From the IMG/VR virus record IMGVR_UViG_3300008107_005969, positions 1 through 22,235 of that record: a DNA stretch of 22,235 nucleotides; one strand, given 5' to 3'. A program made the position numbers and the translations under genes. The notes beneath the pieces were generated by a model. That model saw nothing but the letters and a program-made list of their open reading frames with translations, had not been told where the DNA came from and ran no database searches. This DNA comes from a virus. This document shows positions 3,694 to 20,381 of the stretch, in pieces; within the stretch, counting starts at the first letter, position 1; every line of letters begins with the position of its first letter.

Positions 3694-4836
3694 ATGTTTG
3701 GCTTCAAGCAGTATATTCCATTATTATCAGAACAGAAAAAACCAGTTCGCGGAATACTACACCTCCCACATCCTTCTGAAGCCGCTTTTAACACTCGTAA
3801 AGGCGCAGTCGGTTCCACTCTCTCCAAGATTCAAGGTGTTATCAGTGGTCGCACTCCGATCACTCGTAAGATCGACGATCGAATGTCTTTCCAAGCCATT
3901 CGCACACCAGAAGGTAAAGTCGGTGTAAAGTATAAAGGCACTGGCGCAACTTATAACTTCTCTTCAGAAGATATTAAGAAACAACACAGCGAAAAGCCAT
4001 ACATCGCTGGTCCACTTATGAATATCCTCAAGCACGTCCATAAAGTGCTTCCAAAGGGTTCAGGAGAATATCAGGGTGGATATCTCAGTTCTCTTGAAGA
4101 CCGCACCGAAGAAGATGGCAACATCGGTCACAAACCGAATACTATTCGTTATTCTGTAGATAAAAATTCTGCAGAAGGAAAGAAACTCGCAAAGGCTCCA
4201 TTGAGCATTGCGCTTCACTCTCGTATTGCTGCTGATGGCAGCACATCTCCAATCGGTGAAGGCGAGTTGCAAGAACATCCAGATGTTCATCTAATGAGTC
4301 ATCTTGTTTCTTCAGAAGAAAGAAAACTCAGCCCAGAAGCAAAGCGAAAAGCACTTGAACATATCGCTGCAGCAAAAAAACTCTCAAAAGATCATTCACA
4401 TGACCACCATGAAGGTCATGAAGAAACTCTATTGCGTTACGCAAACTCAACTGTTGATAGTGGAGAAAAGCCAAGTGCAAAGGGTTACACAAAATTTCTT
4501 CAACAAGATCATCAAAAGAAGATTGATAAAGTTAAGACTGATAAAGCAAAGGCTCAGAAAACTGAAGTCATGAAAGCATCAATTAATCATGTAAATGATA
4601 ATCTTGATAAGTTTGATAGAACATTCGAAGTTCATCATCATATTCACCAAGCAACTCAAGCTGTTGCAAATGCTTTATCCAAAACAGCGCATGGTGGATA
4701 CTCGCACAAGATAAATGGTCAAGAAGCTGCTGGCGAAGGGTTTGTTTCTGGAGGAATGAAGTTTGTTCCTCGAGCATTTACTGAAGCAAATCGCAAACGT
4801 TCAGCGGAATTGAAAGCACAAAAGAGTGTATTATGA
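3694..4836 (+). CDS. T4-like phage protein with ligase/nucleotidyltransferase-like motifs (probable DUF6267 family)
   Basis: 380 aa; from memory it resembles a family of T4-like phage proteins I believe is called DUF6267. Its landmarks fall in the order of covalent nucleotidyltransferases (DNA/RNA ligases): KIDDR at residues 59-63 in place of KxDGxR (motif I), GEYQGGY at 124-130 (motif III-like), HKPNTIRYSV at 146-155, EGFV at 348-351 (motif IV) and MKFVPRAF at 355-362 (motif V-like). The motif I glycine is Asp here, so activity is uncertain. A Lys-rich helical insert with His-rich patches (233-242 and 314-318) separates the halves. The N-terminus MFGFKQYIPLLSEQ resembles T4 capsid-targeting peptides. 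ATG 3694 follows GTGGAGAGAG. The stop overlaps the next start by four bases. Confidence 0.7.
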   Translation: MFGFKQYIPLLSEQKKPVRGILHLPHPSEAAFNTRKGAVGSTLSKIQGVISGRTPITRKIDDRMSFQAIRTPEGKVGVKYKGTGATYNFSSEDIKKQHSEKPYIAGPLMNILKHVHKVLPKGSGEYQGGYLSSLEDRTEEDGNIGHKPNTIRYSVDKNSAEGKKLAKAPLSIALHSRIAADGSTSPIGEGELQEHPDVHLMSHLVSSEERKLSPEAKRKALEHIAAAKKLSKDHSHDHHEGHEETLLRYANSTVDSGEKPSAKGYTKFLQQDHQKKIDKVKTDKAKAQKTEVMKASINHVNDNLDKFDRTFEVHHHIHQATQAVANALSKTAHGGYSHKINGQEAAGEGFVSGGMKFVPRAFTEANRKRSAELKAQKSVL

Positions 4837-5429
4837 GTAAAGCAACATTCACCTTTGGAAGATTTAATCCACCAACCGAGACTGGTCATGGCAAATTGGT
4901 TTCTGCTGTTCAAGCGCATGCAGAAAAAACTAGTGGCAAACATTATATCTTTCCATCACATTCTCAGGACTCAAAAAAGAATCCATTGAGCCACAAAGAT
5001 AAGGTTGGTGCAATGAATCGTTTGTTCCCAAATGCAAACGTTGTTGCGAGTGGCAAAGTGCGTACTGCAATTGATGCTATGAAACATTTAGAAGCGCAAG
5101 GTCACACTCACGTCACTATGGTTGTAGGTTCTGATCGCGTTGATAACTTCCAATCTCTACTCGATAAATATAGAACTAAAGAGTATCCAAAAATTAAAAA
5201 GGTTAATGTTGTATCAGCAGGAGATCGTGATCCAGATGCAGAAGGAGCAGAAGGTATGTCTGCTTCTAAACTTCGTGAATTAGTTTCTGCTGGCAAGAAA
5301 AAAGAATTTGTTTCACATTATAGCGATCCAAAATTGGGCGCACATATACATGATAAGGTAAAAGCAGGTATGCAAATGGAATCAGTTTCACCTATATCCT
5401 TAAGAATATCTTTTCGCGTTTTGATTTAA
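4833..5429 (+). CDS. NMNAT/cytidylyltransferase-like nucleotidyltransferase, C-terminus disrupted
   Basis: Member of the HIGH-motif nucleotidyltransferase superfamily, which transfers AMP or CMP to a phosphate-bearing acceptor. Seen: TFGRFNPPTETGH at residues 7-19 (HIGH-type loop), the phage-typical SQDSKKNPL (44-52), VVGSDRV, VVSAGDRDPDAEG, and GMSASKLRE near residues 140-148 (ISTMTS-like second motif). Compared with the usual FNPPTxGH there is one extra residue (FNPPTETGH), so the Thr/His normally three places before the final His is displaced. Homology ends at about VKAGMQME (near 5380); the last 15 or so residues are read out of frame from the following kinase segment and are probably not native. 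ATG 4833 overlaps the previous stop. The acceptor is unknown. Confidence 0.8.
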   Translation: MSKATFTFGRFNPPTETGHGKLVSAVQAHAEKTSGKHYIFPSHSQDSKKNPLSHKDKVGAMNRLFPNANVVASGKVRTAIDAMKHLEAQGHTHVTMVVGSDRVDNFQSLLDKYRTKEYPKIKKVNVVSAGDRDPDAEGAEGMSASKLRELVSAGKKKEFVSHYSDPKLGAHIHDKVKAGMQMESVSPISLRISFRVLI

Positions 5430-6622
5430 CTGAAGTTCAAGCTGATCAAATTCTCACTGGTGCTGCCGCAGAACTATTCGAATTAAATAAAAACATTGTG
5501 ATCAATGGTGCCAATGATGCCGATAAAATCGAGCTTGTGCAAACCATGCTTGAAGGATATACATTTGATTTTGTTCACGTATCTGTAACAAATAAAGTTT
5601 CTCGTTTGCGCAACGAACAACGCGAACAACCAATTGCAGAATCAAAGAGAATTGAGAAGTATCTCAAGGCTGAGCAATTAGCAAAAGATGTTGAAGCATT
5701 TATCTTTAACAACTCAATCAATCTTAATGAATCAACTGAGATGGAAAGAGTTTTCTTTGGATCTCAAATTGAGAAAATTCTAGAGCGTATTATGACTCTT
5801 GGTTTGGAGATTCAAGAGGAATCTTCACCAAAGTCTTTTACTCTTCTTCGCGAAAAAAAGTTTCCACCAGTCGCGAAAGATAAAGAATCTGGTTTACCAA
5901 AGAAATATGTTCGTGGATTGAGTGCATCAACAGCAAAAGCACGCAAGACTCATTGGAAAAAGATGGATAAACTTTCCGATAAAGATCCGCGAGCATATGA
6001 GCCAGCTCCTGGCGATGCAACTGCAAAAACGAAACCAAGCACGCATACTCTCGCTGTTCGTAAGATGATGGATGAGGCTGAGCAACAAAAGGTTCGCCGT
6101 ATTGCTCGTAGTGGCAATATCACTGCAGTGATGGACAAGCGTAAAGAAACAGGTCGTGTCAGTGAGTCTGCAGATTCTTCAATTTCTGCAAAAGCCAAGA
6201 AGTCAGGCATCTCTGTTGGTACACTTCGTAAAGTTTACAAGCGCGGAGTTGCTGCTTGGAATTCTGGACATCGTCCAGGAACGACACCACAACAGTGGGG
6301 TCATGCTCGTGTAAATTCTTATATCAATAAGGGTAAGACTTATCACACAGCAGATAAAGATTTGCGCGAAGAAGCAGACATTGATGAACTATTTGAAATG
6401 CAATTGGTGGGTACAGATGAATATCGTAAGCATGCCATTGCTATGACACCAGGACAAAATCAGGAGATTGAAAATGCTTACACTGCTACGAAATCTGTTA
6501 CAGCCAAAGAAGACTGTGATTGTGGAGGAGAAGGCATCCAGTTCCTCCAGGATATGAGCGTGTTAAGTCTTGGGGTGGCGCTTATGAACTACGCAAGATT
6601 CGCGAAAAGCCAGCAACGGTGA
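5393..6622 (+). CDS. P-loop kinase C-terminal half fused to small phage domains; start missing
   Basis: The first block, about 5393-5720, resembles the C-terminal half of a small phage P-loop kinase (YILKNIFSRFDL, NIVINGAND, VTNKVSRLRNEQRE). The Walker A loop and the start codon that should precede YILK are absent. The frame stays open upstream into the previous gene, and the first in-frame start-like codon, GTG 5498, lies inside homology. Next comes a module around GLPKKYVRGLS...AYEPAPGD (5858-6070) and one around SGISVGTLRKVYKRG...WGHARVNSYI (6200-6370); from memory both are recurrent small domains of unknown function in T4-like phages. Motifs of type (L/I/M/V)-x-E (LLRE, MMDE, RVSE, DIDE) lie between the modules. 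Homology ends near CDCGG (6525); the rest to 6622 reads through an apparent break. Confidence 0.6.
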   Translation, partial: YILKNIFSRFDLTEVQADQILTGAAAELFELNKNIVINGANDADKIELVQTMLEGYTFDFVHVSVTNKVSRLRNEQREQPIAESKRIEKYLKAEQLAKDVEAFIFNNSINLNESTEMERVFFGSQIEKILERIMTLGLEIQEESSPKSFTLLREKKFPPVAKDKESGLPKKYVRGLSASTAKARKTHWKKMDKLSDKDPRAYEPAPGDATAKTKPSTHTLAVRKMMDEAEQQKVRRIARSGNITAVMDKRKETGRVSESADSSISAKAKKSGISVGTLRKVYKRGVAAWNSGHRPGTTPQQWGHARVNSYINKGKTYHTADKDLREEADIDELFEMQLVGTDEYRKHAIAMTPGQNQEIENAYTATKSVTAKEDCDCGGEGIQFLQDMSVLSLGVALMNYARFAKSQQR

Positions 6623-7122
6623 AAGAAGCTGTAGAATATCACATGGAAAATGAGATCTCTTTTACGGAAAATGTATTTCGTCCAGGCTCAGAGATGTTCT
6701 TCGAGATGATTGCCGAAGCCAAGAAACTTTATAAAGAAGGCAAATATACACCTGCTGATGAATTCGAATTAGACATGCTCAATTCCGATATCGGAGAGAA
6801 AGTAATCTTCGAAGGTCAGGAAGTGATTCTTGACTATCCATTCGAAGAAGAGTTGAACGAAGAAGATAAAACTGGCGGCAAGGGTATTGGCAAGCCATGG
6901 CGCGAAGGCGGTGGCGGTGCTGTTTATGTTCGTGACGGTGGATCAATTCGTAAAGTCAGTTTCAGTAAGTCTGGAATGAAAAAGAGATATATGGACCCTG
7001 CTGCAACTCGTAGTTTCGTTGCTCGTCATCGTTGCTTAACAAACAAAGATAAGACTAGCGCATCCTATTGGGCATGCCGTTGGCCAAGATTCTTTAGCAA
7101 TTCAGGCAAGACATGGTGGTAA
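6520..7122 (+). CDS. Multi-domain T4-like phage protein of unknown function, continuation of the previous gene after a break
   Basis: Frame 1 opens at TTG 6520, but plausible protein begins near PPGYERVKSWGG (6544), suggesting the N-terminus belongs to the gene in frame 2 upstream and that DNA is missing near 6525-6545. Modules seen: FRPGSEMFFEMI...DIGEKVIFEGQ...LDYPFEEE (6674-6855), a domain type I know as widespread in T4-like phages of aquatic bacteria; GKGIGKPWREGG with a strand-rich AVYVRDGGSIRKVSF (6873-6970); and a C-terminal FVARHRC...KDKTSASYWACRW (7014-7085), whose Cys, Arg and aromatic residues recur at the ends of many such phage proteins. No enzyme motif is visible. The stop is immediately followed by the cupin start. 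Confidence 0.65.
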   Translation: MWRRRHPVPPGYERVKSWGGAYELRKIREKPATVKEAVEYHMENEISFTENVFRPGSEMFFEMIAEAKKLYKEGKYTPADEFELDMLNSDIGEKVIFEGQEVILDYPFEEELNEEDKTGGKGIGKPWREGGGGAVYVRDGGSIRKVSFSKSGMKKRYMDPAATRSFVARHRCLTNKDKTSASYWACRWPRFFSNSGKTWW

Positions 7123-7395: not shown

Positions 7396-8838
7396 ATGGC
7401 AAACGTAAAAGTTCCAGCATTATTGCATAAGATGTCAAAAGCTGCTCAAAAGGCATGGTATAAGAAAAATAATATGGAAATGCCGCAAGAGAGATCTGCT
7501 GCTGGTGCCAAAAAGATTAAGCCAGTAGAAGTCAAGCCAGTAGAAGCTCCAGAAGTTCCTGCTGTAGATAGACCAAAGACTGCTCGTGAAATCAGTGCAG
7601 AACGCCAAGCAGCATACTACGCCAAAGGTGGACGTCAGCCAATTGGTGCTGGTGGTTCTGGTGGAAGCAGTGCAATGGCTGGTGGTGGACAATCAACCAT
7701 TAAAGATCTGAAAGCAAGTATCAAAGCAGGATTTAACCCAAAGGTTTCTTTAGATCCATATGAATCAGAAAGAGCAAAAAAAACTGGACCGAGGTCATTA
7801 AAAATGAAAAAAGAAGAAGTTCAAATTGGCGAAGCATTGAGCCCAGAACGTAAAAGAATGTTTGACCTCAAACTAAAATTGATCAAGAAAGTTGCCAACA
7901 AAAAGGCATACACAAAACCATCAAAGGTAGATTCGCCACGCGCACTATTAAATCCAGCAGCAGATATGAAATTAAATCCAAGACCACCAAGCGGTGACGG
8001 TAAGGAATACTACCGAGAAGAAATGCAGATCGATGAAGTTACAAAGAAGGAAGCCGAATCAATGCTCGGCGGTCCAGTCAAAGAAAAGCCAAAGATGCCA
8101 CCAGGAAAACAACCAGCAGCATATCGTTACGTTCGTGGTCTTGCCCGCAAAGCGATGAAAGCAGGAATGAAGAAAGAAGAAGTCACACTTGATGAAGTAA
8201 CTGGATACGAAGGCGTCAAAGATCGTACAGATATGATTAAGAGAGCCGCTGCAATGGGTAGAATGGGTAAGAATGTTTTCCTTGCACGAGTAAAAGCTCG
8301 TGCTACTGAAATGAAGAAACAAAAGGCAATGAAGGAAGAAGTTCAAGATCAAGCAGATGTCGGCGAATATGATTACGAAGGCGATATGGCAAAGTCTCAA
8401 CTTCGCAGCATTCTAGCCAATGCAAAGCGTATGCACGATATGCTTGAAGAAAACACAAATCTTCCTGAATGGGTTCAGAGCAAGATTACTCTTGCCGAAG
8501 ATTACATCCTCACCGCCGCCAATTATATGGAAGGTGAGATGAATGAGGAACTTATCAGTCAAGAAGAATCAATCTTCGAAGCAATGAAGAAGATGGAGCT
8601 GGACGACGAAGAAGATGAAATGGACGATGAAGATGAAATGGATGATGAAGATGAGATGGACGATGATGAAGAAGAAACAAAAATAAAGAAAGAAGAAGTC
8701 GGCGGCAAAGTTGCTGTAACTCCAAAAGAAAAGGCACTCGCTGCACATCATGGCGATAAGACCAAAATCACTTACGGTGATGTAATCAAGGCTCGTTTAA
8801 AGTCTGTCGCTGCAAAAGCAATGAATAAAGGTAAGTAA
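7396..8838 (+). CDS. Lys/Glu-rich multi-domain phage protein with repeated KKEEVxxIxE motifs (possible capsid-internal polyprotein)
   Basis: 480 aa, rich in Lys, Glu, Met and Ala. Small domains: an N-terminal VPALLHKMSKAAQKAWYKKN segment; a Gly/Ser linker (81-98); SPERKRMFDLKLKLIKK (149-164); DRTDMIKRAAAMGRMGKN (277-293); a helical module YDYEGDMAKSQL...YILTAANYMEGEM (325-382), common in T4-like phages; an acidic DDEDEM repeat (404-421); and TPKEKALAAHHGDKTKITYGD (442-462). Between them lie KKEEVQIGE-A (138-146), REEMQIDE-V (207-215), KKEEVTLDE-V (259-268) and looser KEEV...VGE-Y (313-325) and SIFE-A (392-396). These match the (L/I)-x-E cleavage rule of T4 prohead protease. GAGGAATT precedes ATG 7396. 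A structural or capsid-internal role is inference. Confidence 0.7.
   Translation: MANVKVPALLHKMSKAAQKAWYKKNNMEMPQERSAAGAKKIKPVEVKPVEAPEVPAVDRPKTAREISAERQAAYYAKGGRQPIGAGGSGGSSAMAGGGQSTIKDLKASIKAGFNPKVSLDPYESERAKKTGPRSLKMKKEEVQIGEALSPERKRMFDLKLKLIKKVANKKAYTKPSKVDSPRALLNPAADMKLNPRPPSGDGKEYYREEMQIDEVTKKEAESMLGGPVKEKPKMPPGKQPAAYRYVRGLARKAMKAGMKKEEVTLDEVTGYEGVKDRTDMIKRAAAMGRMGKNVFLARVKARATEMKKQKAMKEEVQDQADVGEYDYEGDMAKSQLRSILANAKRMHDMLEENTNLPEWVQSKITLAEDYILTAANYMEGEMNEELISQEESIFEAMKKMELDDEEDEMDDEDEMDDEDEMDDDEEETKIKKEEVGGKVAVTPKEKALAAHHGDKTKITYGDVIKARLKSVAAKAMNKGK
8605..8658 (+). repeat. In-frame 18-bp tandem repeat coding for acidic DDEDEM units
   Basis: Three consecutive 18-base units (8605-8622, 8623-8640, 8641-8658) encode DEEDEM, DDEDEM and DDEDEM, followed by a run DDDEEE. 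The units differ at only a few bases, so this is a young expansion compared with the other repeats in the window. It forms a strongly acidic patch in an otherwise basic protein. Confidence 0.85.
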
Positions 8839-8839
8839 A

Positions 8840-10093
8840 ATGAAATACGTTGTACAACTTTCATACACAAATCCAGCTCACGAACACGTTTCATTGCGTC
8901 GTCGCGTTGATACAGTTAATCGTATCATTGAGGCAGCAAATGAGAATCAAGCAATTCTCCGCGCATCACAGCAACAACGCGCTTTAGGTTTTATGATCAA
9001 AGAAGCAAAGATCGTAAAAGAAAAAGAAAAGATGAAGAAAAAAGAAGTTGTGGTTGATAGTAACGAAAAAACAGAAGTTGCTGCATCGGGTGGTATGAAA
9101 GAAGAAGTCGAGCAGATAGATGAGGCTCGCCGTATGAGTGCAGCAGAAAAGTTGGGTCGTGCATTTGACAGAGAAAAAACAGCAAGCGATGCCAGCCGTA
9201 AGCGTGGCGAGGAAATGCTGGCTCAGGCTCGTGCAGAATATGCAAAGAAGCAAGCCGCTAAGACAAACGAAGAAGCCGAGCAGGTGGATGAAGCCAACAT
9301 GCGCTTTGATCCAGAAGCTGCTGCTCGTCCAAAGTCATCTGATGTCAAAAACTTCTTGAATCGAAATAAGAATGCTCGTGCTGGCGCTGCTTCTAAAAAG
9401 TATATTCGCCGCATGACAAAACTCGGTGGTCTTGGTCCAAATCAAACCAAAAAAGACACTGAAAAGCATATGAAGAATTATTTCGAAGAAGTCCAAATCT
9501 CAGAAGCATCAAAAGAAGGCAAATCTGTAATGTACGGTATGCGCGCTTCAATGAAAGCAATGGATCTACGTCACGGCGTTGATTCAGACAAGCGTGATTC
9601 TGGCTACAAGATGTCACCTGCTGTTCGTGCTGCTCAAGCCAAGTCTGATGCTCTTTCTAAGGTTGAAAAACCAGTGCAGGCAGGAACTCTTGCTGCTCTA
9701 AAACGAAGAGAGATGAAAAAAGAAGAAGTTGAGTACATTGAAGAAAAACTATCAGCTGGTGATCCTGCATCAAAGTGGATCAGTGACTTCGTTGCTTCTG
9801 ATAATCCAAAATTTGCTGGTAAAACAAAGAAAGAGCGCATCAATATGGCTCTTGGTGCCTACTATGCAGCAAAGAAAGGGAAGAATGAAGAAGTTGAACA
9901 CGTTGAAGAGGCTGCTGATCCAGGTAAATTACGTGTTGTAAATAAGAAAGTTGAGGCGCAAGCGTCAAAAGATACAAAAAAATCTGAACAGAAGTCAAAG
10001 GCAACTGAAAAAGCAATTGACGTCGCAAAAAGTAAGAAAAATCCAGTTAATCTAAAGCCAGTACTCGGTGGAGACAAGGTGAACAATGCTTAA
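8840..10093 (+). CDS. Lys/Ala-rich multi-domain phage protein with repeated EEVxxIxE motifs (possible capsid-internal polyprotein)
   Basis: 417 aa. It opens with a folded-looking domain MKYVVQLSYTNPAHEHVSLR...EAANENQAILRASQQQRALG (1-50). The rest is a string of basic helical segments separated by the same motif as in the preceding gene: MKEEVEQIDE-A (86-96), NEEAEQVDE-A (143-152), FEEVQISE-A (215-223), MKKEEVEYIEE-K (292-303) and NEEVEHVEE-A (349-358). The segment between the last two holds a module common in T4-like phages (WISDFVASDNPKFAGK, then ERINMALGAYYAAKK), so its edges coincide with the motifs. The C-terminal 60 residues are Lys/Ser rich and probably disordered. AAGGTAAG precedes ATG 8840, one base after the previous stop. 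Function is not known; processing by prohead protease is proposed as inference. Confidence 0.7.
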   Translation: MKYVVQLSYTNPAHEHVSLRRRVDTVNRIIEAANENQAILRASQQQRALGFMIKEAKIVKEKEKMKKKEVVVDSNEKTEVAASGGMKEEVEQIDEARRMSAAEKLGRAFDREKTASDASRKRGEEMLAQARAEYAKKQAAKTNEEAEQVDEANMRFDPEAAARPKSSDVKNFLNRNKNARAGAASKKYIRRMTKLGGLGPNQTKKDTEKHMKNYFEEVQISEASKEGKSVMYGMRASMKAMDLRHGVDSDKRDSGYKMSPAVRAAQAKSDALSKVEKPVQAGTLAALKRREMKKEEVEYIEEKLSAGDPASKWISDFVASDNPKFAGKTKKERINMALGAYYAAKKGKNEEVEHVEEAADPGKLRVVNKKVEAQASKDTKKSEQKSKATEKAIDVAKSKKNPVNLKPVLGGDKVNNA

Positions 10094-10547
10094 ATTTAAA
10101 GATTTCTTGAATGAACAAGCTGAAACTGATGTAATTGAAGTTGATTCAACATACGTTTCATCAAATAAAGATGCTATCAACGCAGATTTTGATGTTTTAA
10201 CCGCAAAACCATATCAAAACGCACCTATTTTCTTAAATCAGTTGCGCGGAACAGTAGAACGCTATGGTATGTTGATCCCAGCGGAAGCAACACCACACTT
10301 TCTGAACTTGTCTGCTGAATTAGTATATGCTCTTGGCGATTCAGATCTCTATCTTTACATCGTTTATGACACTGGTGAAGATGGATTTGTAGATGGATAC
10401 GCTCAAGTTGTTACTTCTGATGAATTAAGCGATCTAACACAGTTAGATTCAGAAGAACTTCTAGGTGATCGCGATCCAATCGGACCAAGATCGTCAATTT
10501 CATATGCAAGAAAAGACGACGATTCAGGAAACAGCAGCGAATATTGA
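10086..10547 (+). CDS. Conserved T4-like phage protein with capsid-targeting-like N-terminus
   Basis: 153 aa, acidic. The N-terminus MLKFKDFLNEQ has the form M-x-x-(F/Y)-x-x-(F/L)-(I/L)-x-E seen in T4 internal-protein capsid-targeting sequences, which gp21 cuts after the Glu. The body (DAINADFDVLTAKPYQNAP, FLNQLRGTVERYGMLIP, then GYAQVVTSDELSDL) and the C-terminal KDDDSGNSSEY match, from memory, a conserved hypothetical protein of aquatic T4-like phages; no motif gives a function. ATG 10086 lies inside the end of the previous gene, so translation is probably coupled. It is followed after three bases by the next start. Confidence 0.7.
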   Translation: MLKFKDFLNEQAETDVIEVDSTYVSSNKDAINADFDVLTAKPYQNAPIFLNQLRGTVERYGMLIPAEATPHFLNLSAELVYALGDSDLYLYIVYDTGEDGFVDGYAQVVTSDELSDLTQLDSEELLGDRDPIGPRSSISYARKDDDSGNSSEY

Positions 10548-11678: not shown

Positions 11679-12611
11679 ATGAGTTTGAAAGCACTTCAAC
11701 AAAAGATCGGAGTTACAGCAGATGGTTCGTGGGGTCCAGGAACTCTACGAGCAGCTGCTGCATTCTATAAACTATCACCAGCAAGAGCAGCACACTTCTT
11801 TGGACAAACTGCTCATGAAACTGGCGGATTCAAGGCATTCTCAGAGAACTTGAGTTATGGCGCAAAGGGCTTGATGAGTATATTCAAGAAATACTTCCCA
11901 GATGCTGCCACTGCTGCAAAGTATGAGAGAAAGCCAGAAGCCATTGCTAATAGAGTCTATGCTAATCGCATGGGCAATGGTCCAGAATCATCTGGTGATG
12001 GTTGGAAGTATCGTGGTCGTGGTGCTCTTCAATTAACAGGTAAAGATAATTACCAGGCGTTTGCAAAATTCTGCAATCGTCCAGATGTAATGACAAATCC
12101 TGATCTCGTTGCCACTGAATTGGCATTCGAATCAGCAATGTTTTTCTTCGAACGAAACAAACTTTGGAATATTTGCGATCAAGGAGTGACTGATGCTGCG
12201 ATATTATCCCTTACTAAGAAAATTAATGGTGGTACTCACGGCTTGGAAGATCGCAAGAATAAGACGAAAACGTACTATGCGCAATTAAGTGCACCTGCTG
12301 GCGCAACACCAAAAGTTGTGACTCCAACAGCATCGAATGGAATTGTTGTTCCACCACCAGCTCAGTTAGTTGCTGCATCAAAACCAGCAGCAATTGCTTC
12401 TGTTTCTCCAGAAATGAAATTGTCTGAACACTTTAATCTTAAAGAGTTCACCAAGTCAGAAACAGCAACAAGAAAGCGAATTGACAATACACCAAATGCT
12501 CAACATGCACAAAACCTCAAAAATGTCTGTGACAAAATTCTTGAACCTGTTCGTAAACATTTTGGGAAGCCTGTTCGTATTAACTCTGGTTATCGCGGTA
12601 GAATTCTATGA
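11679..12611 (+). CDS. Endolysin: GH19 glycosidase followed by a truncated M15 peptidase domain
   Basis: Degrades host peptidoglycan at lysis. Residues 1-30 hold a short IGVTADGSWGPGT motif like the repeat of peptidoglycan-binding domains. Residues 35-205 are a GH19 (chitinase/lysozyme-like) domain with the catalytic Glu in HETGGF (E47), a second acid in SENLSY (E56), the YRGRGALQLTG core (101-111) and a GGTHG loop. After an Ala/Pro linker (207-243), residues 246-306 begin a peptidase M15-type domain (LSEHFNLKEF, HFGKPVRINSGYR). Right after SGYRG the frame ends. The next family segment, which carries the zinc-binding SxHxxGxAxD motif, is absent, while the domain's C-terminus continues downstream in another frame. 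As written, only the GH19 activity should survive. GAGGTTAAG precedes ATG 11679. Confidence 0.85.
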   Translation: MSLKALQQKIGVTADGSWGPGTLRAAAAFYKLSPARAAHFFGQTAHETGGFKAFSENLSYGAKGLMSIFKKYFPDAATAAKYERKPEAIANRVYANRMGNGPESSGDGWKYRGRGALQLTGKDNYQAFAKFCNRPDVMTNPDLVATELAFESAMFFFERNKLWNICDQGVTDAAILSLTKKINGGTHGLEDRKNKTKTYYAQLSAPAGATPKVVTPTASNGIVVPPPAQLVAASKPAAIASVSPEMKLSEHFNLKEFTKSETATRKRIDNTPNAQHAQNLKNVCDKILEPVRKHFGKPVRINSGYRGRIL

Positions 12612-12738
12612 TCCAAAGGAAGGTCCAAACTCGGGTTGGGTTCATGCATCATATTCTGCAGGAAAGAACCGCAAACAAAAATTGACTGCTGTTACGGTCA
12701 ATGGCAAAACAGTCTACAAGCCAGGATTTGTAGTGTAA
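12601..12738 (+). pseudogene. C-terminal remnant of the endolysin M15 peptidase domain
   Basis: In frame 1, EFYDPKEGPNSGWVHASYS followed by GKNRKQKLTAV matches the C-terminus of phage M15-type peptidases (the EFYDP...GPNSGWVH strand, whose His is normally a zinc ligand). It has no start codon of its own and directly follows the endolysin N-terminal part, with about 45 family residues lacking at the junction near 12598. The stop TAA 12736-12738 would be the true end of the endolysin. Confidence 0.8.
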
Positions 12739-12748
12739 GGAAAAACAA

Positions 12749-13138
12749 ATGAGCTGCGATACAGATAACAAATATAATCTAACAATGTGGCAAGGATCTA
12801 CATTTGGACTTGCTATCACAGTAAAAGATGCAAACAATGCAGTGCAGAATCTAACGAGTTATACTGCTCGTATGCAAATTCGAAAGGATTATACTTCTGG
12901 AACAGCAACTGAAACACTTACATCTGCAAATGGTGAGATTACCATTACTGCAGCAACAGGAAATGTTTCTATTGAACTTGCTGCTTCTAGAACTGCAAAC
13001 ATCGCAGTTGATATGAGCAACGGTAAACCACCAAAGTCCTCTTATGTTTATGATTTAGAATTGATTGATGCTGCAAGTAAAGTCACCAAATTACTATATG
13101 GTGATGTCACAGTATATGGTGAAGTTACGCGCATATGA
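12749..13138 (+). CDS. Ig-like baseplate/tail protein, BppU N-domain type
   Basis: 129 aa, nearly all beta strand. [17 protein letters not shown], then [12 protein letters not shown], then [19 protein letters not shown], then [10 protein letters not shown] and a last strand pair [16 protein letters not shown] follow the pattern of a widespread phage Ig-like domain, also found at the N-terminus of baseplate proteins such as BppU. It probably sits at the baseplate or as an anchor for the fibres encoded just downstream. AAGGA precedes ATG 12749. The stop overlaps the next start (ATGA), so it is likely made in step with the first fibre protein. Confidence 0.72.
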
Positions 13139-14307
13139 GTTTAGATAATCCTACTGTAGTACAAGCAACAAGTAATACAGTCACTGTTGTTTTAAATCCT
13201 TCTCTTAGCCAAATTGCTGTGGTTCAGCCACAAGTTGGCAGCACAGTTGTTCGTGATAATGTTGTTCGTGGTCCAGAAGGTCCTTCTGGACCTTCTGGAG
13301 CATTAAGTCCATGGACAATCAAAACTGCAAATTATACTGCTGTTGATGGCGATCGTATTGTCGCTGATACAAGCAACGGTGCATTCACGATTACTTTACC
13401 TAGCAGTCCAATCGGTGGCGCATACGTTCAATTTACTGACGGTTCAAGTTGGTCAAATAATAATCTAACAGTCGCTCGCAATGGATCAACTATTGAAGGA
13501 TTTAGTCAAGACCTTCTATTGAATATTAGTGGTGTAACTGTTGAGTGCATCTACAATAGTTCTCAGGGAACTTGGGAAGTCACAGCAACTCTTGGACCAC
13601 GTGGTCCTCAAGGACCAACAGGACCAAGTGTGACAGGTCCACAAGGACCAACAGGACCACAAGGTGCACAAGGATTTCAAGGACCTCCTGGATTTACAGG
13701 TAATGCTGGTCCTCAAGGACCGTCAGGACCATCTGGACCAGAGGGATCGTTTGGTGGCATTACTCTAGAATATACTTTTGACACAAATACTGCAAATACT
13801 GATCCAGGCGTCGGTCAATTAAAGTTTAATCAAACAAATTTGCAATTAGCAAATCAAATGTATATTAGTGAATTTGCTGATGGTGGTATTGACGTTACAA
13901 GTTTTCTACAAACTATTGATGACTCAACATCACCAATTAAAGGACATTTTAAAGTAACTTCCAGATCTAACGTAGAAGCGTTTTTGCTTTACACGATTTC
14001 TAGTACGGTTCATCCTGGTGTCTATTCTATCGTAAATTGCTCTTATGTTTCTGGAGACACAAATCTTTCTGGAATTCTTTTCACAGAAAATCAAAATGTA
14101 CTGATAACTTTTGCGCGTACAGGTGATATTGGTGCGCCTGGTCCACAAGGACCACAAGGTCCATCTGGAGTTGTGTGGGTTTCTACTCCATCTACCAATG
14201 TAAGTACATGTAATGTTAATGAAATGTCATATGATGCAAATGGAAATTTTTACATCTGTATATCTCCAAACACTTGGAGTAAGATAGATGGTAGCACTAT
14301 CTGGTGA
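13135..14307 (+). CDS. Collagen-like mosaic tail-fibre protein
   Basis: 390 aa. Order of parts: a short N-terminal strand region; Gly-x-y triplets at about 44-56; a beta domain common in T4-like fibres ([15 protein letters not shown]...FTITLPSSP...VARNGS...TWEVTA, 62-151); a collagen-like block of about 18 triplets (153-206); an [20 protein letters not shown]...FARTGDIG domain (207-332) that recurs in the large fibre gene at 16970; another short collagen block (333-343); and a C-terminal [20 protein letters not shown]...[16 protein letters not shown] module. Collagen triplets imply a trimeric fibre. It starts on the ATGA overlap at 13135. Receptor-binding specificity cannot be read from sequence. 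Confidence 0.78.
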
Positions 14308-14311
14308 TTAG

Positions 14312-14920
14312 ATGTCAATAACCTTACAAGATATTCTTATTAGCGGCGCACCTCCTGGACCACAAGGTCCACAAGGTGCTGCAGGACCAACAGGTCCTCA
14401 AGGCGCACAGGGTAATACTGGTCCAACAGGTCCATCTGGTCCACAGGGATTAAGTGGTCCAACTGGTCCCCAAGGACCAGCAGTTGATCTAGAAAACATC
14501 ACGACGAATATTATTCCTTCGACGAATAATACTCTCGATCTCGGTTCTACTGTAAAGAGATTTAATGATATTTACTCCGAGACTCTAACTCTTGGAATTT
14601 TTAAAACTCTCACACAGCAAATTGAGTCGAATTCGAATTCTCCATATACGATTGATACATTCCTTTCTTCGGCGTTCAGAACTGTGAAATACATCGTTCA
14701 AGCGACAAGTATTAGTGGAATTCACTCAACCGAAGTCTTTTGTATGCAGGACGGTGTGACAGCGTATCTTACAGAGTACGCCACACTGATTTCTGGTAGT
14801 CCACTCGGAAATTTCTCTATTGGAGTTGTAAGCGGAAATGTTAATTTAACGTTCTCTCCAATAAACCCAGACAATAATATTATAACTTTAAAAGTGATAA
14901 GATACGCTGTAACCAGCTAA
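14312..14920 (+). CDS. Short collagen-like tail-fibre protein
   Basis: 202 aa. Residues 12-56 are Gly-Pro-Gln/Thr/Ser triplets. Then follows an [22 protein letters not shown] module (shared with the next fibre gene as NIIPAANVTFNLGSPEARFKDLY). The C-terminal 80 residues ([29 protein letters not shown], then LKVIRYAV) match the C-terminus of the fibre encoded at 14953, so the two probably end in the same folded tip or trimerisation domain. The gene starts five bases after the preceding stop with only a weak ribosome site, suggesting coupled translation, and is followed by a late promoter. Confidence 0.75.
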
Positions 14921-14923
14921 TAA

Positions 14924-14931
14924 TATAAATA
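14924..14931 (+). promoter_or_regulatory. T4-type late promoter octamer
   Basis: TATAAATA is an exact match to the -10 element recognised by the T4 late sigma factor gp55. It lies in the short gap between two fibre genes, 21 bases before ATG 14953, with AGGAG (14942-14946) between. It would give the 14953 fibre its own late transcript. The element needs no -35 box in T4. Confidence 0.7.
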
Positions 14932-14952
14932 GTTTATCACTAGGAGATCTCA

Positions 14953-16923
14953 ATGGCCACATTAAATCGTACATTTAGCGTCAAGAACGGTATTGACGTT
15001 GCGAATACAATAATTGTCGATTCAAATCGAAATGTCTCCAATGTCGCAAATCTTAGTGCAAACACTGGTACGTTTAGTGGTAATGTAAACGTCTCTGGAA
15101 CGTTAATCACACAAAATATCATTCCAGCCGCAAATGTTACGTTTAATCTCGGTTCTCCTGAAGCAAGATTTAAAGATCTCTATTTGAGCGGAAGTACGCT
15201 CGACTTAAATGGCGTTGCATTGAGTGCAAATGGGGATGAACTCCGCGCCAATACGTTTAATGCTTCAGTTTCGTTCGTTAGTGCTGGTCTAAACGTACTT
15301 GATCAAGCAAATACAGCTCGCACTCAAGCCAATACTGCATACGGACAAGCGAATGTTGCGTATGGTCAAGCAAACACTGCAAGCGATCAAGCAAATACTG
15401 CTCGAGACCAATCAAATTCCGCATTTGCTCAAGCAAATGCTGCATATGTCCAAGCCAACGCTGCCAGCACCAGCTCAAATTCTTCTGCAAACACGGTTCG
15501 TGTTTCTGCGAATGGCGGTTCGACGCTTTCTGGAAAACAACTAAACTTTGTCAATACATCAACGGCTCTTATCTCTGTCACAGACGCAGTAGATGGTAAT
15601 GCAAACATCACGGTTAACGTTATCGGTGGTGGTGCAATCGGTCAAGCATATGACCAAGCAAATACTGCTCGCGATACTGCCAATGCCGCATATGCTCAAG
15701 CAAATACTGCTCGAAGCGATGCAAATGCAACATTTGCAAATATAAACACCACTTTCAGCACCACGAACACAACCTTTGGTACAACGAATACAACGTTCGG
15801 GACTGTTAACACTACCTTCGGAACAGTCAATACTGCTGTAACGGCTGCTCATAACCAAGCCAATGCTGCTTACGGTGCAGCAAACCTCAAGTTAAATTTA
15901 ACTGGTGGCACGGTTTCTGGCGATCTTACTGTTCAAGGTAACTTGTTCCTAACTGGTAATGCAACGTATATCAACGTTGCAACCTTGAAGGTCAATGACT
16001 CTATCATTCAGTTATCAACAAATTCAACCTCAGACGCAGTCGATATCGGTTTTGTTGGACACTACAGTGAAGATGGCGGTACGACGAATCTTCATGCTGG
16101 CTTTATTCGTCACGCATCAGATAATGTGTTCTATGCCTTTGATGGATATGGAACTGAACCAACTAACAACGTAATTGATCTTGCTTCTGCAAATCTTGCA
16201 ACAATACGAGCACACGTTAATGCTGCAACGTTGTTGATTAATGGTAGTCCTGCTGCAACACAAGCAAACCTAACTCTTGCACATAACCAAGCCAACGCCG
16301 CTTACGATCAGGCTAATGCTGCTCGTTCTGATGCGAATACAACCTTTGGTACAATTAATACCACATTCGGTACTGTAAACACGACATTCGGTACGACGAA
16401 TACTACATTCGGCACTGTTAATACAACGTTCGGAACAGTTAATACTGCCGTTACAGCCGCACATAACCAAGCCAATGCTGCCTATGATGCCGCAAATACT
16501 CGTGTATTGAAGTCTGGCGATACAATGACTGGTGCGCTAACAATCAATACATCTGGTATTGGTTTGAGCGTATCAAATGCGAACGTAAGATTCTCGTTAC
16601 AAGTTAATTCGTTAAATGTTACGACGAATACTGTAACAACCTCTTCATCTGGTCAAGTTGTGTTGGATAAATTCCCAACGACTCAACTTGCATCAGCCAA
16701 ATACTTCGTCCAAGCAAATAGTGCATCTGATTATCAAACGACAGAAATCGTTCTTGTTCAAGATGCAACAAATGTTTGGCTCACAGAATACGGTAGCATT
16801 CAAACTGGACCATCGCTTGGAACCTTTACAGCAGACATTAGCGGTGGTGATGTGAGATTGCTCTTTACAGCAGTAAATAATATTAACACAATTCGCTCAG
16901 TGAGATACGGCATTATCCCATAA
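14953..16923 (+). CDS. Tail-fibre protein with N-containing heptad repeats
   Basis: 656 aa. The N-terminus [23 protein letters not shown] is shared with the 16970 fibre. Then a NIIPAANVTFNLGSPEARFKDLY module; eight heptads of QANTAYx type (residues 118-173); an [21 protein letters not shown] module; a second heptad tract (235-311) that turns into TTNTTFG units; a GDLTVQGNLFLTGNATYIN...DIGFVGHYSEDGG domain typical of T4-like fibres (about 320-430); a third heptad tract (446-515); and a C-terminal AKYFVQANSASDY...TEYGSIQTG domain shared with the 14312 gene. The regular xxN(T/A)(A/T)(Y/F/R)x heptads suggest a trimeric rod. A late promoter and AGGAG precede ATG 14953. It is probably a long or side tail fibre. 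Confidence 0.78.
   Translation: MATLNRTFSVKNGIDVANTIIVDSNRNVSNVANLSANTGTFSGNVNVSGTLITQNIIPAANVTFNLGSPEARFKDLYLSGSTLDLNGVALSANGDELRANTFNASVSFVSAGLNVLDQANTARTQANTAYGQANVAYGQANTASDQANTARDQSNSAFAQANAAYVQANAASTSSNSSANTVRVSANGGSTLSGKQLNFVNTSTALISVTDAVDGNANITVNVIGGGAIGQAYDQANTARDTANAAYAQANTARSDANATFANINTTFSTTNTTFGTTNTTFGTVNTTFGTVNTAVTAAHNQANAAYGAANLKLNLTGGTVSGDLTVQGNLFLTGNATYINVATLKVNDSIIQLSTNSTSDAVDIGFVGHYSEDGGTTNLHAGFIRHASDNVFYAFDGYGTEPTNNVIDLASANLATIRAHVNAATLLINGSPAATQANLTLAHNQANAAYDQANAARSDANTTFGTINTTFGTVNTTFGTTNTTFGTVNTTFGTVNTAVTAAHNQANAAYDAANTRVLKSGDTMTGALTINTSGIGLSVSNANVRFSLQVNSLNVTTNTVTTSSSGQVVLDKFPTTQLASAKYFVQANSASDYQTTEIVLVQDATNVWLTEYGSIQTGPSLGTFTADISGGDVRLLFTAVNNINTIRSVRYGIIP
15304..15471 (+). 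repeat. First heptad tract: eight 21-bp in-frame units of QANTAYx type
   Basis: Eight consecutive units of 21 bases encode QANTART, QANTAYG, QANVAYG, QANTASD, QANTARD, QSNSAFA, QANAAYV and QANAAST. The amino acids repeat far better than the bases do, so the period is kept by selection on the protein. Confidence 0.85.
15655..15885 (+). repeat. Second heptad tract, changing from QANTAxx to TTNTTFG units
   Basis: Eleven 7-residue units, beginning [35 protein letters not shown], then TTNTTFG and TVNTTFG forms. Asn stays at the third place of the first nine units, down to TVNTAVT; the last two, AAHNQAN and AAYGAAN, keep the length but not that Asn. The last five units (15781-15885) are nearly repeated at 16393-16497. 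Confidence 0.85.
16288..16497 (+). repeat. Third heptad tract, protein-level copy of the second
   Basis: Ten 21-base units encoding QANAAYD, QANAARS, DANTTFG, TINTTFG, TVNTTFG, TTNTTFG, TVNTTFG, TVNTAVT and two Ala/Asn units. Comparing 16393-16497 with 15781-15885 codon by codon, 18 of 35 codons differ, 17 of them synonymous and one changing Gly to Asp. Confidence 0.85.
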
Positions 16924-16969
16924 TGCCTTAAAAAACTTGGCGTTGCTTCTTCAGGGATAGTGAACTGGG

Positions 16970-19900
16970 ATGACAACAGAAAATAGAACGTTCAGCGTTA
17001 AAAACGGACTGAGCGTCGCAAATACAATTGTTATCGATTCAAATCGAAATCTTTCCAATGTTAATTCAATAAACGTTGGTGGACATAATCTTTTTGCAAA
17101 TGTAAATTCAGCTGCCAACACCGTCAGAGTTTCGCAAAATAGTGGCTCTACTCTTTCTGGCAAACAATTAAACTTTGTAAACACAGCAAATGTAACGATT
17201 GCTATCACTGATTCAGGTGATGGTAATGCAAATATTGCAATTTATGCAGCAGCAGGTGGTGGTGGCGGCACTGGAACAGGTAATCCTGGTTCTACTCTTA
17301 ATGGATTTACTGGCACTGGTGCGTGTACAACTTTTGCATTATCCGTAACACCAACAAATATTGGACATACTCTTGTATTCGTTGATGGTGTTCTACAAAA
17401 AACAACAACAGACTATTCATTAAGTTCTGCTGATATCGTCTTTACAACTGCTCCAGTAAATGGCGCAGAAATCGAAGTTTACACTATTGGCGATTCAGGT
17501 CCACAAGGTCCGCAGGGTGCAGCTGGATCAACTGGTCCACAAGGTCCGCAAGGCGCAACAGGTGCAACTGGTCCACAAGGTCCATCTGGTCCATCTGGTC
17601 CTGCATCATCATTAGCTGCAAGTAATTATGTTATGCGTGCTGTCAAGAATGGCACTGCACAAACAGTCACTAGTGGATCTGATGTTGTTGTAACATTGAT
17701 TGATGATTTTGATCCGCAAGGTTGGTTTGCTTCTAATAAATTTCAACCAACAATTGCTGGTTACTATAATATTGATGCTTCAGTTTGGTGGGATGCTGGT
17801 TCTGTAACAAACAACCAAACAAATATTCAACTTAGAAAAAATGGCAACACTCAACTTGCTATTGATCAAGCGCAAATTGTTACTGGTGCTGGTTATGGGC
17901 AAACATTATCTACAATAGTATATTTCAACGGTAGCAGTGATTATATTGAACTTACTGCATTTACAGGAAATACAACATCTCAAAATATCAATGGAGCTGG
18001 TAGCGGTACATATATTGTTGCAAATTTAATTGCTTATGGTGAAACTGGTCCGCAAGGTCCTCAAGGACCACAGGGTCCACAAGGTCCGCAGGGTGCAACA
18101 GGCTCTACTGGTCCACAAGGTCCGCAGGGTCCACAAGGACCTCAAGGTCCACAAGGCACAGCAGGTTCAACTGGTCCACAAGGTCCACAAGGTGTTATCG
18201 GTCCGCAAGGTCCACAAGGTCCACAAGGTGTCAAGGGTGACACTGGTGAATTTGGTGGCGCAACGTTTGAGTATGTTTACCTAACAAACACAGCAAATAC
18301 TAATCCTGGTTCTGGAAATTTAAAATTTGATAATACCACGTTTAGTGGTGTGACAACGTTGTATATCAATGAATTGGATAGTAATGGCGCAAACGTCTAT
18401 AATTATCTACAAACAATTGATGATTCAACATCAACGATTAAAGGTACATTTAAAGTTGCGAATAGTGCAAATACTCTTGATTTTGCATATTTCAATATTA
18501 ATGGATCTCATACGCACGGATCAAATTATTTCTCCGTCCCATCTGCACACCTCAATGGTATAACAACATTACCAAATAGCACCAATGTAATTATTACATT
18601 CGTTCGAACTGGTGATAAAGGTGATGCGGGTCCACAAGGTCCACAAGGTGTTGCTGGTCCACAAGGTCCATCTGGTCCAACAGGAAATTCAATATTCGCC
18701 ACGCAAAATGGCGCTGGATCAATCACTGCAAATACAATTAATTTTGTTAACACTGCAACAGTTACAATTGCCACATCAAATAATAATGGTATTTTAAATG
18801 TAGAATTTACCAGTATTGGTGGTGGAAGCGGTGCAGCAAATGTTGCAATTAAAAATGAAGGCACGACATTAACAAATACCGTGACAAGTATTGATTTTGT
18901 TGGTGCTGGTGTTAATGCAACAGCAACTGGAAACAATGTCACAGTAACTATTACTGGTGGTGGTTCAGGCACAGGTAATCCTGGCGCAACTAGAGATTCA
19001 TTTACTGGAACTGGTGCGTGTACAACATTCACTCTTTCAGTAACACCAACGAATGAAAGTCATACTCTTGTATTTGTCGGAACAGTTCTTCAAGGAGATG
19101 CTGCTTATAACATCAGTGGATCAAACTTGGTATTCACAACTGCACCATCAAATGGTACAGAAATCGATGTATACACCATTGGAGATTCAGGTCCACAAGG
19201 ACCACAAGGACCACAAGGACCACAGGGAGCACAAGGTGTAACTGGATCAACAGGTCCACAGGGTCCACAAGGACCACAGGGTCCACAAGGTCCACAAGGT
19301 GCGCAAGGTTCTTCGGGTGACACAGGACCGCAAGGTCCACAAGGACCAGCTGGTTCTTCTGGATCAACAGGACCACAAGGACCACAGGGACCACAAGGTG
19401 TTGCTGGATCAACAGGTCCACAAGGTCCACAAGGTCCTACATTAACTGTAACTGCGAATGGCGGTTCAGTACTCACATCTGGCAATATTAATTTTGTCAA
19501 CACTTCTTCTGTAACTGTTAGTGTCTCAAATAACAATGGCGTAACTAACGTTGCCTTTACATCCACTGGCGGTGGTGGCGGTGGTGGGGCAAGCATCATT
19601 GTTCAAGATGAAGGAACAACTCTCACTACAAATGTAACGAGTTTCAATTTTGTCGGTGCTGGTGTAACTGCAACAAATTCAGGCGACAATGTTACGATTA
19701 CTATTTCTGGCAGTGGTGGCGGTGGTGGTCAAGCAGAACTTGCCATCTATGATGAAAATGTTTTAATTACAAATACTGTTACATCATTGAACTTTGTTGG
19801 CGCTGCGTTCCAAGCAAATTCAGTTGATGGCACTAATGTTACAATTAGTTTTGTAGAAACTGGTGCTGGTCTAGGTAATGCCAACTTAACAGTCGGAACA

Positions 19901-20170
19901 AGTGCTCCCGCCAATGCAAGAGCAAATCTAGATTTTTGGTGGAATAATGATAGTGGTAAATTAAAACTATATTATAATGATGGAACATCATCTCAGTGGG
20001 TTGACGCTTCTCCAGCAAATCCAGGTCCTCAAGGTCCTGCTGGTCCAACAGGTCCAGCCAACCCAGACGCATACAATCAAGCAAACGCTGCTTATGCTCA
20101 AGCAAATGCTGCTCGAGCAGCGGCAAACTCTAGTGGATTAATCCACCCATTTTTCTTAGTAGGAATGTAA
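16970..20170 (+). CDS. Large mosaic collagen-like tail-fibre protein with a C1q-like module
   Basis: 1066 aa, the largest gene here. Order: N-terminal [15 protein letters not shown] segment; [13 protein letters not shown] module; [10 protein letters not shown] module (17302-17505); collagen 1; a C1q/TNF-like jelly roll (17624-18040: YVMRAVKNG, then [36 protein letters not shown]); collagen 2; an [11 protein letters not shown] module shared with the 13135 fibre; collagen 3; NFVNT and DEGTTLTxxVTS modules; a second [10 protein letters not shown] module; collagen 4; further NFVNT and two DEGTTL-type modules; an [19 protein letters not shown] module; a last short collagen; QANAAYA heptads and [13 protein letters not shown]. 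It was built by repeated duplication of cassettes. The 46-base gap before it shows no clear promoter; the ribosome site (CTGGG) is weak. Confidence 0.78.
18046..18250 (+). repeat. Collagen-like Gly-Pro-Gln array (block 2 of the large fibre)
   Basis: About 22 uninterrupted Gly-x-y triplets, 15 of them GPQ. Codons alternate (GGT/CCA/CCG/CCT/CAA/CAG), but nine-base words recur many times, making this a likely place for short-read assembly or recombination to change copy number. Confidence 0.85.
19190..19440 (+). repeat. Collagen-like Gly-Pro-Gln array (block 4 of the large fibre)
   Basis: About 28 Gly-x-y triplets, mostly GPQ, broken into runs by [12 protein letters not shown] and GDT triplets. 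It is the longest collagen block in the window. The long antisense ORFs over it are composition shadows. Confidence 0.85.
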
Positions 20171-20173
20171 ATT

Positions 20174-20380
20174 ATGCCAACAATATACAAAGTTCTAGCG
20201 CAATCTGCACCGTCATCAACTTCTATTGCGAATGTGTACACAGTTCCTTCTTCAACGAATACAATTATTTCAACGTTGATGATTTGTAACAGAGCAACTG
20301 TCAATGCATCGTATAATATTGCAGTTGTTCCTGGTGGTGCTGCTCTTGGATTTACTTTATTCGGAACTGAATTATCATAA
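20174..20380 (+). CDS. Small tail/fibre-associated protein, central part missing
   Basis: 68 aa as written. The N-terminus MPTIYKVLAQSAPSSTS, then VYTVPSSTN, then MICNRATVNASYNIAVVPGGAAL, matches a small phage structural protein that from memory is about 110 aa. Its C-terminus there is a strand like FTLFGTELS, which is also present here. Between GGAAL and GFTLFG, about 40 residues of the usual sequence (the part with HYIAYD-like and LGITL-like strands) are absent, and the frame is kept. So this looks like an internally deleted copy, with the junction near 20347. TAGGAATG at the end of the large fibre gene serves as its ribosome site. It may be a cap or connector for the fibre. Confidence 0.65.
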   Translation: MPTIYKVLAQSAPSSTSIANVYTVPSSTNTIISTLMICNRATVNASYNIAVVPGGAALGFTLFGTELS

Positions 20381-20381
20381 G

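Follow-up and report, generated by a model that had tools for sequence, protein, structure and literature searches.

Two modular genes in the window

We analysed IMG/VR virus record IMGVR_UViG_3300008107_005969, a stretch of 22,235 bases that is called the window here. The analysis concerned two adjacent open reading frames (ORFs), whose products of 480 and 417 amino acids (aa) appeared to be chains of small modules joined at sites resembling those cut by gp21, the prohead protease of phage T4. PHROG and Pfam searches with the two proteins matched no family. The AlphaFold models of both were of low confidence, with a mean predicted local distance difference test (pLDDT) of 54, and for this reason the full-protein models were not used for a fold search. 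In the 480-aa protein, module A (residues 1-146) was the conserved N-terminal region. It was followed by residues 147-214, by module C (215-267) and by a C-terminal part (268-480), which included a YEGDMAKSQL domain and an acidic tail. The genes and the modules of the 417-aa protein were as follows (pI, isoelectric point).

7396-8838, + strand: modular protein 1, 480 aa; from the ORF, motif statistics and architecture in relatives
8840-10093, + strand: modular protein 2, 417 aa, modules O-H-D-G-B-R; from the ORF, architecture and a near-identical relative (L006)
9125-9292, + strand: module H, residues 96-151, basic
9293-9505, + strand: module D, residues 152-222, pI 10.6 without the acidic tail
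9506-9745, + strand: module G, residues 223-302
9746-9910, + strand: module B, residues 303-357, WISDFVASDNPKFAGK
9911-10090, + strand: C-terminal module R, residues 358-417

Junction sites

The preliminary description of this DNA had listed ten (I/L/V)-x-E sites in the two proteins and had taken them as cutting sites of a gp21-type protease, several of them at the edges of small domains. All ten were present in frame, and an EE(V/M/A) lead stood ahead of eight of them, as had been described. The sites are given below, with a hyphen where the chain would be cut and with the upstream variants that kept (I/L/V/M)-x-E in relatives.

7825-7833, + strand: junction IGE-A (KKEEVQIGE-ALSPER), residues 144-146; 2/2 upstream variants
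8029-8037, + strand: junction IDE-V (REEMQIDE-VTKKEA), residues 212-214, start of module C; 13/13
8188-8196, + strand: junction LDE-V (KKEEVTLDE-VTGYEG), residues 265-267; one upstream sequence only
8359-8367, + strand: VGE-Y, residues 322-324; only 4/19
8572-8580, + strand: IFE-A, residues 393-395, candidate only; one upstream sequence
9116-9124, + strand: junction IDE-A (KEEVEQIDE-ARRMSA), residues 93-95 of the 417-aa protein; 7/7
9284-9292, + strand: junction VDE-A (NEEAEQVDE-ANMRFD), 417-aa residues 149-151; 8/8
9497-9505, + strand: junction ISE-A (FEEVQISE-ASKEGK), 417-aa residues 220-222; 3/3
9737-9745, + strand: junction IEE-K (KEEVEYIEE-KLSAGD), 417-aa residues 300-302; 5/5
9902-9910, + strand: junction VEE-A (NEEVEHVEE-AADPGK), 417-aa residues 355-357; one upstream sequence only

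In total, (I/L/V)-x-E occurred 17 times, with 9 sites in the 480-aa protein and 8 in the 417-aa protein. Expected counts were calculated from the composition of each protein. An enrichment of the bare tripeptide was not found (9 against 7.8 expected, p 0.37; 8 against 6.4, p 0.31). The strict pattern EE(V/M/A)-x-(I/L/V)-x-E occurred three times against 0.05 expected in the 480-aa protein and twice against 0.02 in the 417-aa protein (p<0.0005 each). Leads and sites fell mostly in stretches of the models with pLDDT below 50.

The conservation of the sites was monitored with one profile per module family, and the 12 residues ahead of each match were read whether or not they held the motif. These upstream tests were built to escape the circularity of a motif-based definition, and the site-by-site patterns were written after seeing the data. 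The comparison covered seven sites, since LDE-V, VEE-A and IFE-A had a single upstream sequence each. At six of the seven, all 38 upstream variants kept the pattern, so the description of the sites as junctions held for these six and did not hold for VGE-Y. VGE-Y was rejected as a cutting site because of its low conservation. Judging from the upstream variants, it is probably not a site, and it served as an internal negative control for the six junctions.

Module shuffling in relatives

A search of viral contigs gave 38 and 30 related loci, in whose proteins KEEVEQ(I/V)DE-like motifs were repeated as many as seven times. When 52 collapsed proteins were split at the motif, 34 recurrent module families in shuffled orders were obtained, together with 86 singletons. 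Module D was found in 10 collapsed proteins, at several positions. Some modules of the relatives corresponded to the DUF6321, DUF5824 and PHROG 727/30733 families. By tblastn, the 417-aa protein and modules B and J had no match in isolate phages, and a pattern scan of genome contigs gave 287 matches with no relative among them.

Close relatives differed by single modules. The order was A-C-I-N-F-J in L024 and A-C-I-N-F-D-J in L025. L006, the closest relative of the 417-aa protein, was near-identical to it and carried exactly one extra module of 56 codons, located at the IDE-A junction. The break between L006 and the window fell inside the repeated motif DNA, GAAGAAGTCGAGCAG.

At the module borders, 116 distinct upstream sequences were obtained, 37 of them without the canonical lead. 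In 31 of these 37, (I/L/V/M)-x-E was kept at the border. The background of this pattern in the same proteins was 5.8%, which gave p 8e-33, a nominal value since the sequences are related. The changed-lead borders and the 38 junction variants indicated that the residues read by gp21 were kept while the rest varied.

The expectation that the products of cutting would be small and basic held in composition. Among 130 internal modules of relatives, 95% had a pI above 9, compared to 22% of control fragments. Their median pI was 10.1. With the acidic tail, the predicted products had a median pI of 9.5 and a median length of 71 aa.

Protease and gene position

The protease gp21 (Peptidase_S77, PF03420) was found in 15 of the 15 module-bearing records above 130 kb that were tested; 13 of them were isolates and the other two were IMG/VR contigs (173 and 136 kb). 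It was also found in two short contigs, near the modular gene, and in another three contigs, 104-157 kb in length, that carried modules behind a capsid targeting sequence (CTS). The 101-kb contig G009 had no gp21, but it also had no match to gp17-gp20, gp22 or gp23. In three lineages (L060 in G014, L061, and L064-L066), the modular protein was located between the portal gene gp20 and gp21, an interval that is the slot of gp67 and gp68 in T4. Module B was among the modules at this position in G014 (L060) and L064-L066. In the window and in G001, the modular genes were located elsewhere.

One further gene was seen in this interval. At L065:7178-7531 (+), between the modular gene and gp21, lay a 117-aa protein with a perfect CTS, MLTFKEFLAE-GSARGAY, and it is a candidate internal protein by its N-terminus.

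Capsid targeting sequences

In T4, the end of the CTS is a gp21 site. The N-terminus of T4 IPII and IPIII is MKTYQEFIAE-A. Within the CTS, residues 4 and 7 are the main determinants of targeting, and residues 8 and 10 those of processing (PMC9026906). Three genes that neighbour the modular genes in the window were compared with this pattern.

3694-4836, + strand: DUF6267 protein, 380 aa, N-terminus MFGFKQYIPLLSE-Q
4833-7122, + strand: cytidylyltransferase/NadR-like gene with DUF5824; ORFs 4833-5429, 5498-6622 and 6520-7122
10086-10547, + strand: downstream 153-aa protein with the T4-type CTS MLKFKDFLNE-QAE

Homologues of the 153-aa protein kept such N-termini. Homologues of the DUF6267 protein had a canonical CTS (MLQFSAFLTE-A, MKSFIDFLKE-E), and since members of this group carry CTS-type N-termini, the family is a candidate internal head protein. 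Cyanophage homologues of the cytidylyltransferase gene also had a CTS and were found in virions. In eleven genomes or fragments, the CTS pattern matched 11 genes, of which 9 were inside the listed intervals of the locus (Fisher p 3e-9). A tenth match, in S-SM2, was the start of a cytidylyltransferase homologue beside a module-bearing gene.

An N-terminal CTS was present in the relatives L043, L071, L158, L163, L165 and L166. In some relatives, the CTS was found in the same chain as modules. In L043, the CTS MKKFQEFINE was followed by EEVxxE sites, and in L158, L163, L165 and L166 the CTS preceded at least one module, with EEVxxE-type sites as the joints. In L185 and L195, the CTS ended right at the AWQRKEGK (DUF6321-like) module. 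A relaxed, CTS-like sequence, MKSYKDMINE, lay immediately ahead of module B in L068.

The AWQRKEGK module is very common in IMG/VR, with at least 595 confirmed matches. In the loci L158-L237 it was stand-alone, often with a Gly/Lys-rich lead, or located behind a CTS or an EEVxxE site. At its junction, (I/L/V/M)xE was present in 11 of 12 proteins with a CTS and in 8 of 55 without one (Fisher p 6e-7). The contigs with stand-alone copies measured up to 114 kb and gave no match to gp21 or to the T4 portal. Both were found on the CTS-type contigs of 104-157 kb. This contrast is suggestive only, because fragments may miss genes. Homologues in phages lacking a gp21-type protease had been named beforehand as evidence against processing. 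This condition needs care: one module was found on contigs in which T4 head genes were not detected, but on these contigs it was stand-alone and the site was absent.

In addition, two proteins resembled capsid proteins. L081 (G001 C1:156919-157284) is a 121-aa protein with the CTS MKSFKEFIKE followed by DAPANAMGAAGISS...GIAGFDPVMG. The stretch after the CTS was a close copy of the N-arm of its own major capsid protein (MCP) after an apparent cut (NLWE-AAPANAMGSAGISG...GVTGFDPILIG). In S-CREM2 gp160, which was detected in virions, residues 17-70 matched a major head protein family. These likenesses might reflect capsid-lining mimicry.

Virion proteomes of relatives

Published proteomes placed relatives in virions; they concern these relatives, not the window proteins, and do not map protein ends. 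The virion proteome of S-CREM2 includes gp154, gp136, gp137 and gp160 (PMC10665884 Table 3); its authors warn that contamination of the virion preparation may explain some of the non-structural proteins. We found that gp154 is a cytidylyltransferase with the N-terminus MKNFSSFLTE-A and that gp136 begins with MQTFSMFFSE-D. An AWQRKEGK-type module was located at the end of gp137, and the modules of gp160 were linked by KKEETEISE-GKKDACYHKVK. S-SZBM1_139 and S-SZBM1_140 are included in the virion proteome of S-SZBM1 (PMC9146016 Table 1). S-SZBM1_140 begins with MRFRQFIIE-A, and its neighbour S-SZBM1_139 has a module core that also occurs in the set. In S-SM1 virions, the cytidylyltransferase T4-GC190 was detected (PMC3037559). 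Its N-terminus was MKKFSAFLNE-A, and the next gene encoded KKEEVENVEE-G.

Proposed processing and alternative explanations

Composition and neighbourhood point to the head, as against tail-fibre or host-gene readings. The border-precise swapping, the kept (I/L/V/M)-x-E, the gp20-gp21 position, the CTS, the presence of gp21 and the virion detection of relatives all spoke for the polyprotein that the preliminary description had proposed. We consider it likely that the window genes encode mosaic prohead-core or internal-head polyproteins of an uncultivated T4-like water phage and that gp21 would cut them into basic products of about 55-80 aa. Each module would act as a cassette, a mostly basic unit with an acidic tail ending in the gp21-type site (I/L/V/M)-x-E. 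The cassette chain would be incorporated into the prohead core during head assembly, and a gp21-type serine protease would cut after the glutamate at the cassette borders. Several products would thus be made from a single gene at a fixed ratio. Recombination between the repeats would add, remove or reorder cassettes in frame. This is possible because the cassettes are bounded by near-identical DNA and follow the same cutting rule, and the cassette set could therefore change quickly.

The following points weigh against this interpretation. A recognisable N-terminal CTS was absent from both window modular proteins, and because of this their targeting lacks an explanation. From none of the modular proteins is a cleavage product or a processed N-terminus known. 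The specificity of T4 gp21 is described as L/I-x-E (PMC9026906), whereas V occupied P3 in 28 of 83 distinct junctions, about a third; the apparent MCP sites of the inspected relatives had always L or I. Neither the window nor its closest relative has gp21, and both are fragments. The PF03420 scan of the window, a fragment record, gave no match, and none was found in 14 control genomes either. The module families were initially delimited with the motif pattern, and the p-values overstate certainty because the junctions of related proteins are not independent. The motif also had codons that differed from the rest of the genes (V as GTC, 53% against 19%; Q as CAG, 69% against 27%). This bias is a sign of shared DNA descent, so that part of the motif conservation may reflect recombination.

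For the products, two fates are possible. One is release inside the head and injection, and the other is discard, as for the fragments of T4 gp67, gp68 and gp22. Most likely, at least some products would be retained with the DNA and delivered into the host, as T4 IPI-III are. A wider proposal is that a T4-superfamily phage may carry its injected internal proteins as protease-released polyproteins, and that a single cutting rule together with a single recombination repeat would let it swap host-directed peptides. We put this forward tentatively, with slightly more doubt than confidence.

The second fate belongs to a core scaffold like T4 gp67, gp68 and gp22, which gp21 would cut at the junctions only for clearance before DNA packaging, so that the modules would not be cargo. 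The cutting step is shared with the processing proposed above, and the difference lies in the fate of the products. A scaffold would fit the three lineages in which the protein takes the place of gp67/gp68, flanked by gp20 and gp21, and gp67 and gp68 were reported missing from cyanophages (PMC2984593). T4 core proteins are also cut into multiple fragments, most of which leave the head (PMC9026906). However, module-bearing relatives were detected in purified virions (S-CREM2 gp160 and gp137; S-SZBM1_139), although scaffold and protease were detected there too. The modules are basic and vary unusually among close relatives, and these properties suit cargo more than parts with a conserved role in assembly. 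We regard a pure scaffold as rather unlikely.

If KEEVEQ(I/V)DE were instead a shared exchange linker, the proteins would be uncut multi-domain proteins with an E-rich site that has no protease function. The biased codons common to the motif copies, their mean pairwise DNA identity of 87% and the repeated DNA that bounds the difference between L006 and the window would all be expected. However, (I/L/V/M)xE was kept in 31 of the 37 borders that had other leads (DSVELDGPVIDE, APQNVSE, RMALIMNE, HPDLIKE, MKYIEE, KKKKVDE). A CTS, which ends in a gp21 site in T4, can directly precede a module, and one module lacks the site where it occurs in stand-alone copies, on contigs in which no T4 head genes were detected. 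A linker-only reading is weakened by these changing leads, and we find it improbable.

The repeats could also be docking motifs, that is, multivalent internal targeting signals that bind scaffold or capsid, with no cleavage or only incidental cleavage. The window proteins, without an N-terminal CTS, need another targeting signal, and hydrophobic-x-Glu is common to the CTS and the motif. However, the lead, which would be the docking part, changed between junctions while the residues read by gp21 stayed, and docking seems very improbable to us. That the two are not head proteins but multi-domain proteins that act inside the infected cell and bind DNA or RNA is hardly credible, since the basic composition and a cyanophage locus near replication genes such as uvsX, gp41 and gp61 are set against virion proteomics of relatives, the gp20-gp21 position and the CTS on neighbours and on some modular proteins.

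Surrounding genes

The gene row of the window also held a cupin-like protein (7123) and a DUF7207 protein (10551), and a comparable neighbourhood recurred in T4-like cyanophages and in Pelagibacter phage HTVC008M. In the relatives L016, G001 and G009, the cytidylyltransferase/NadR-DUF5824 gene was one ORF of about 900-1040 aa, compared to three ORFs in the window. The overlapping ORFs 285-1641, 1641-2787 and 11679-12738 looked split in a similar way, and either contig frame breaks or true pseudogenes could account for this. At 13135-20170, large neighbouring proteins had collagen-like GPQGPQ repeats and repeated AYxQAN segments, and these repeat-rich proteins are probably tail fibres. They were followed by a glycine-rich protein at 20304-21389.

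Comparison with known systems

T4 internal proteins, the CTS, processing by gp21 and variable sets of internal proteins are already known. In the open-access literature that was searched, we found no chains of exchangeable internal-head modules with protease sites at their borders. DUF6321, DUF5824 and PHROG 727/30733 are database families of unknown function, and the searches found neither cassettes nor a part in processing described for them. The present analysis provides a testable account of an unannotated protein class in Kyanoviridae-like and other T4-like water phages.

DarA and Hdf of phage P1 are internal head proteins, and DarA is trimmed by the prohead protease (PMC12810830). They differ in that an N-terminal propeptide is removed from structured capsid-lining proteins, with no cassette chain. 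In phiKZ and SPN3US, many head or ejected proteins are processed, sometimes at several sites, and the cut follows a short motif with Glu as its last residue (PMC5694885, PMC7411985, PMC9026906). However, as far as the available parts of these sources go, processing removes propeptides, extra sites lie inside the propeptide, and no chain of swappable small modules is described.

T4 gp67, gp68 and gp22 also have several (I/L)-x-E sites, and relatives of the window proteins lie in the gp67/gp68 slot. In contrast, there was no family match, the window proteins are much longer than gp67 and gp68, their sites lie at the borders of exchangeable modules, and relatives were detected in virions. The modular proteins are candidates for the apparently missing gp67 and gp68 of cyanophages.

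Among known systems, T4 IPI, IPII, IPIII and Alt are also small basic head proteins with a terminal (I/L)-x-E site and variable sets. In addition, neighbours in the window locus share their 10-residue CTS pattern (MKTYQEFIAE in T4, MLKFKDFLNE in the window). However, the T4 proteins are single, each with its own CTS and one cut, whereas in the window many units of similar size follow one another within a reading frame, with internal sites that recur and no recognisable CTS. The CTS together with (I/L/V/M)xE borders gives a rule for predicting internal head cargo from sequence. T4 internal proteins stay in the head and are injected, and the type IV restriction enzyme that is blocked differs between Ip1, Ip2 and Ip3 (PMC12373910). 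If the products of the modular genes were also injected, cassette shuffling would let new proteins directed at the host or its defences arise quickly. These results suggested that one gene may load many small proteins into the phage head.

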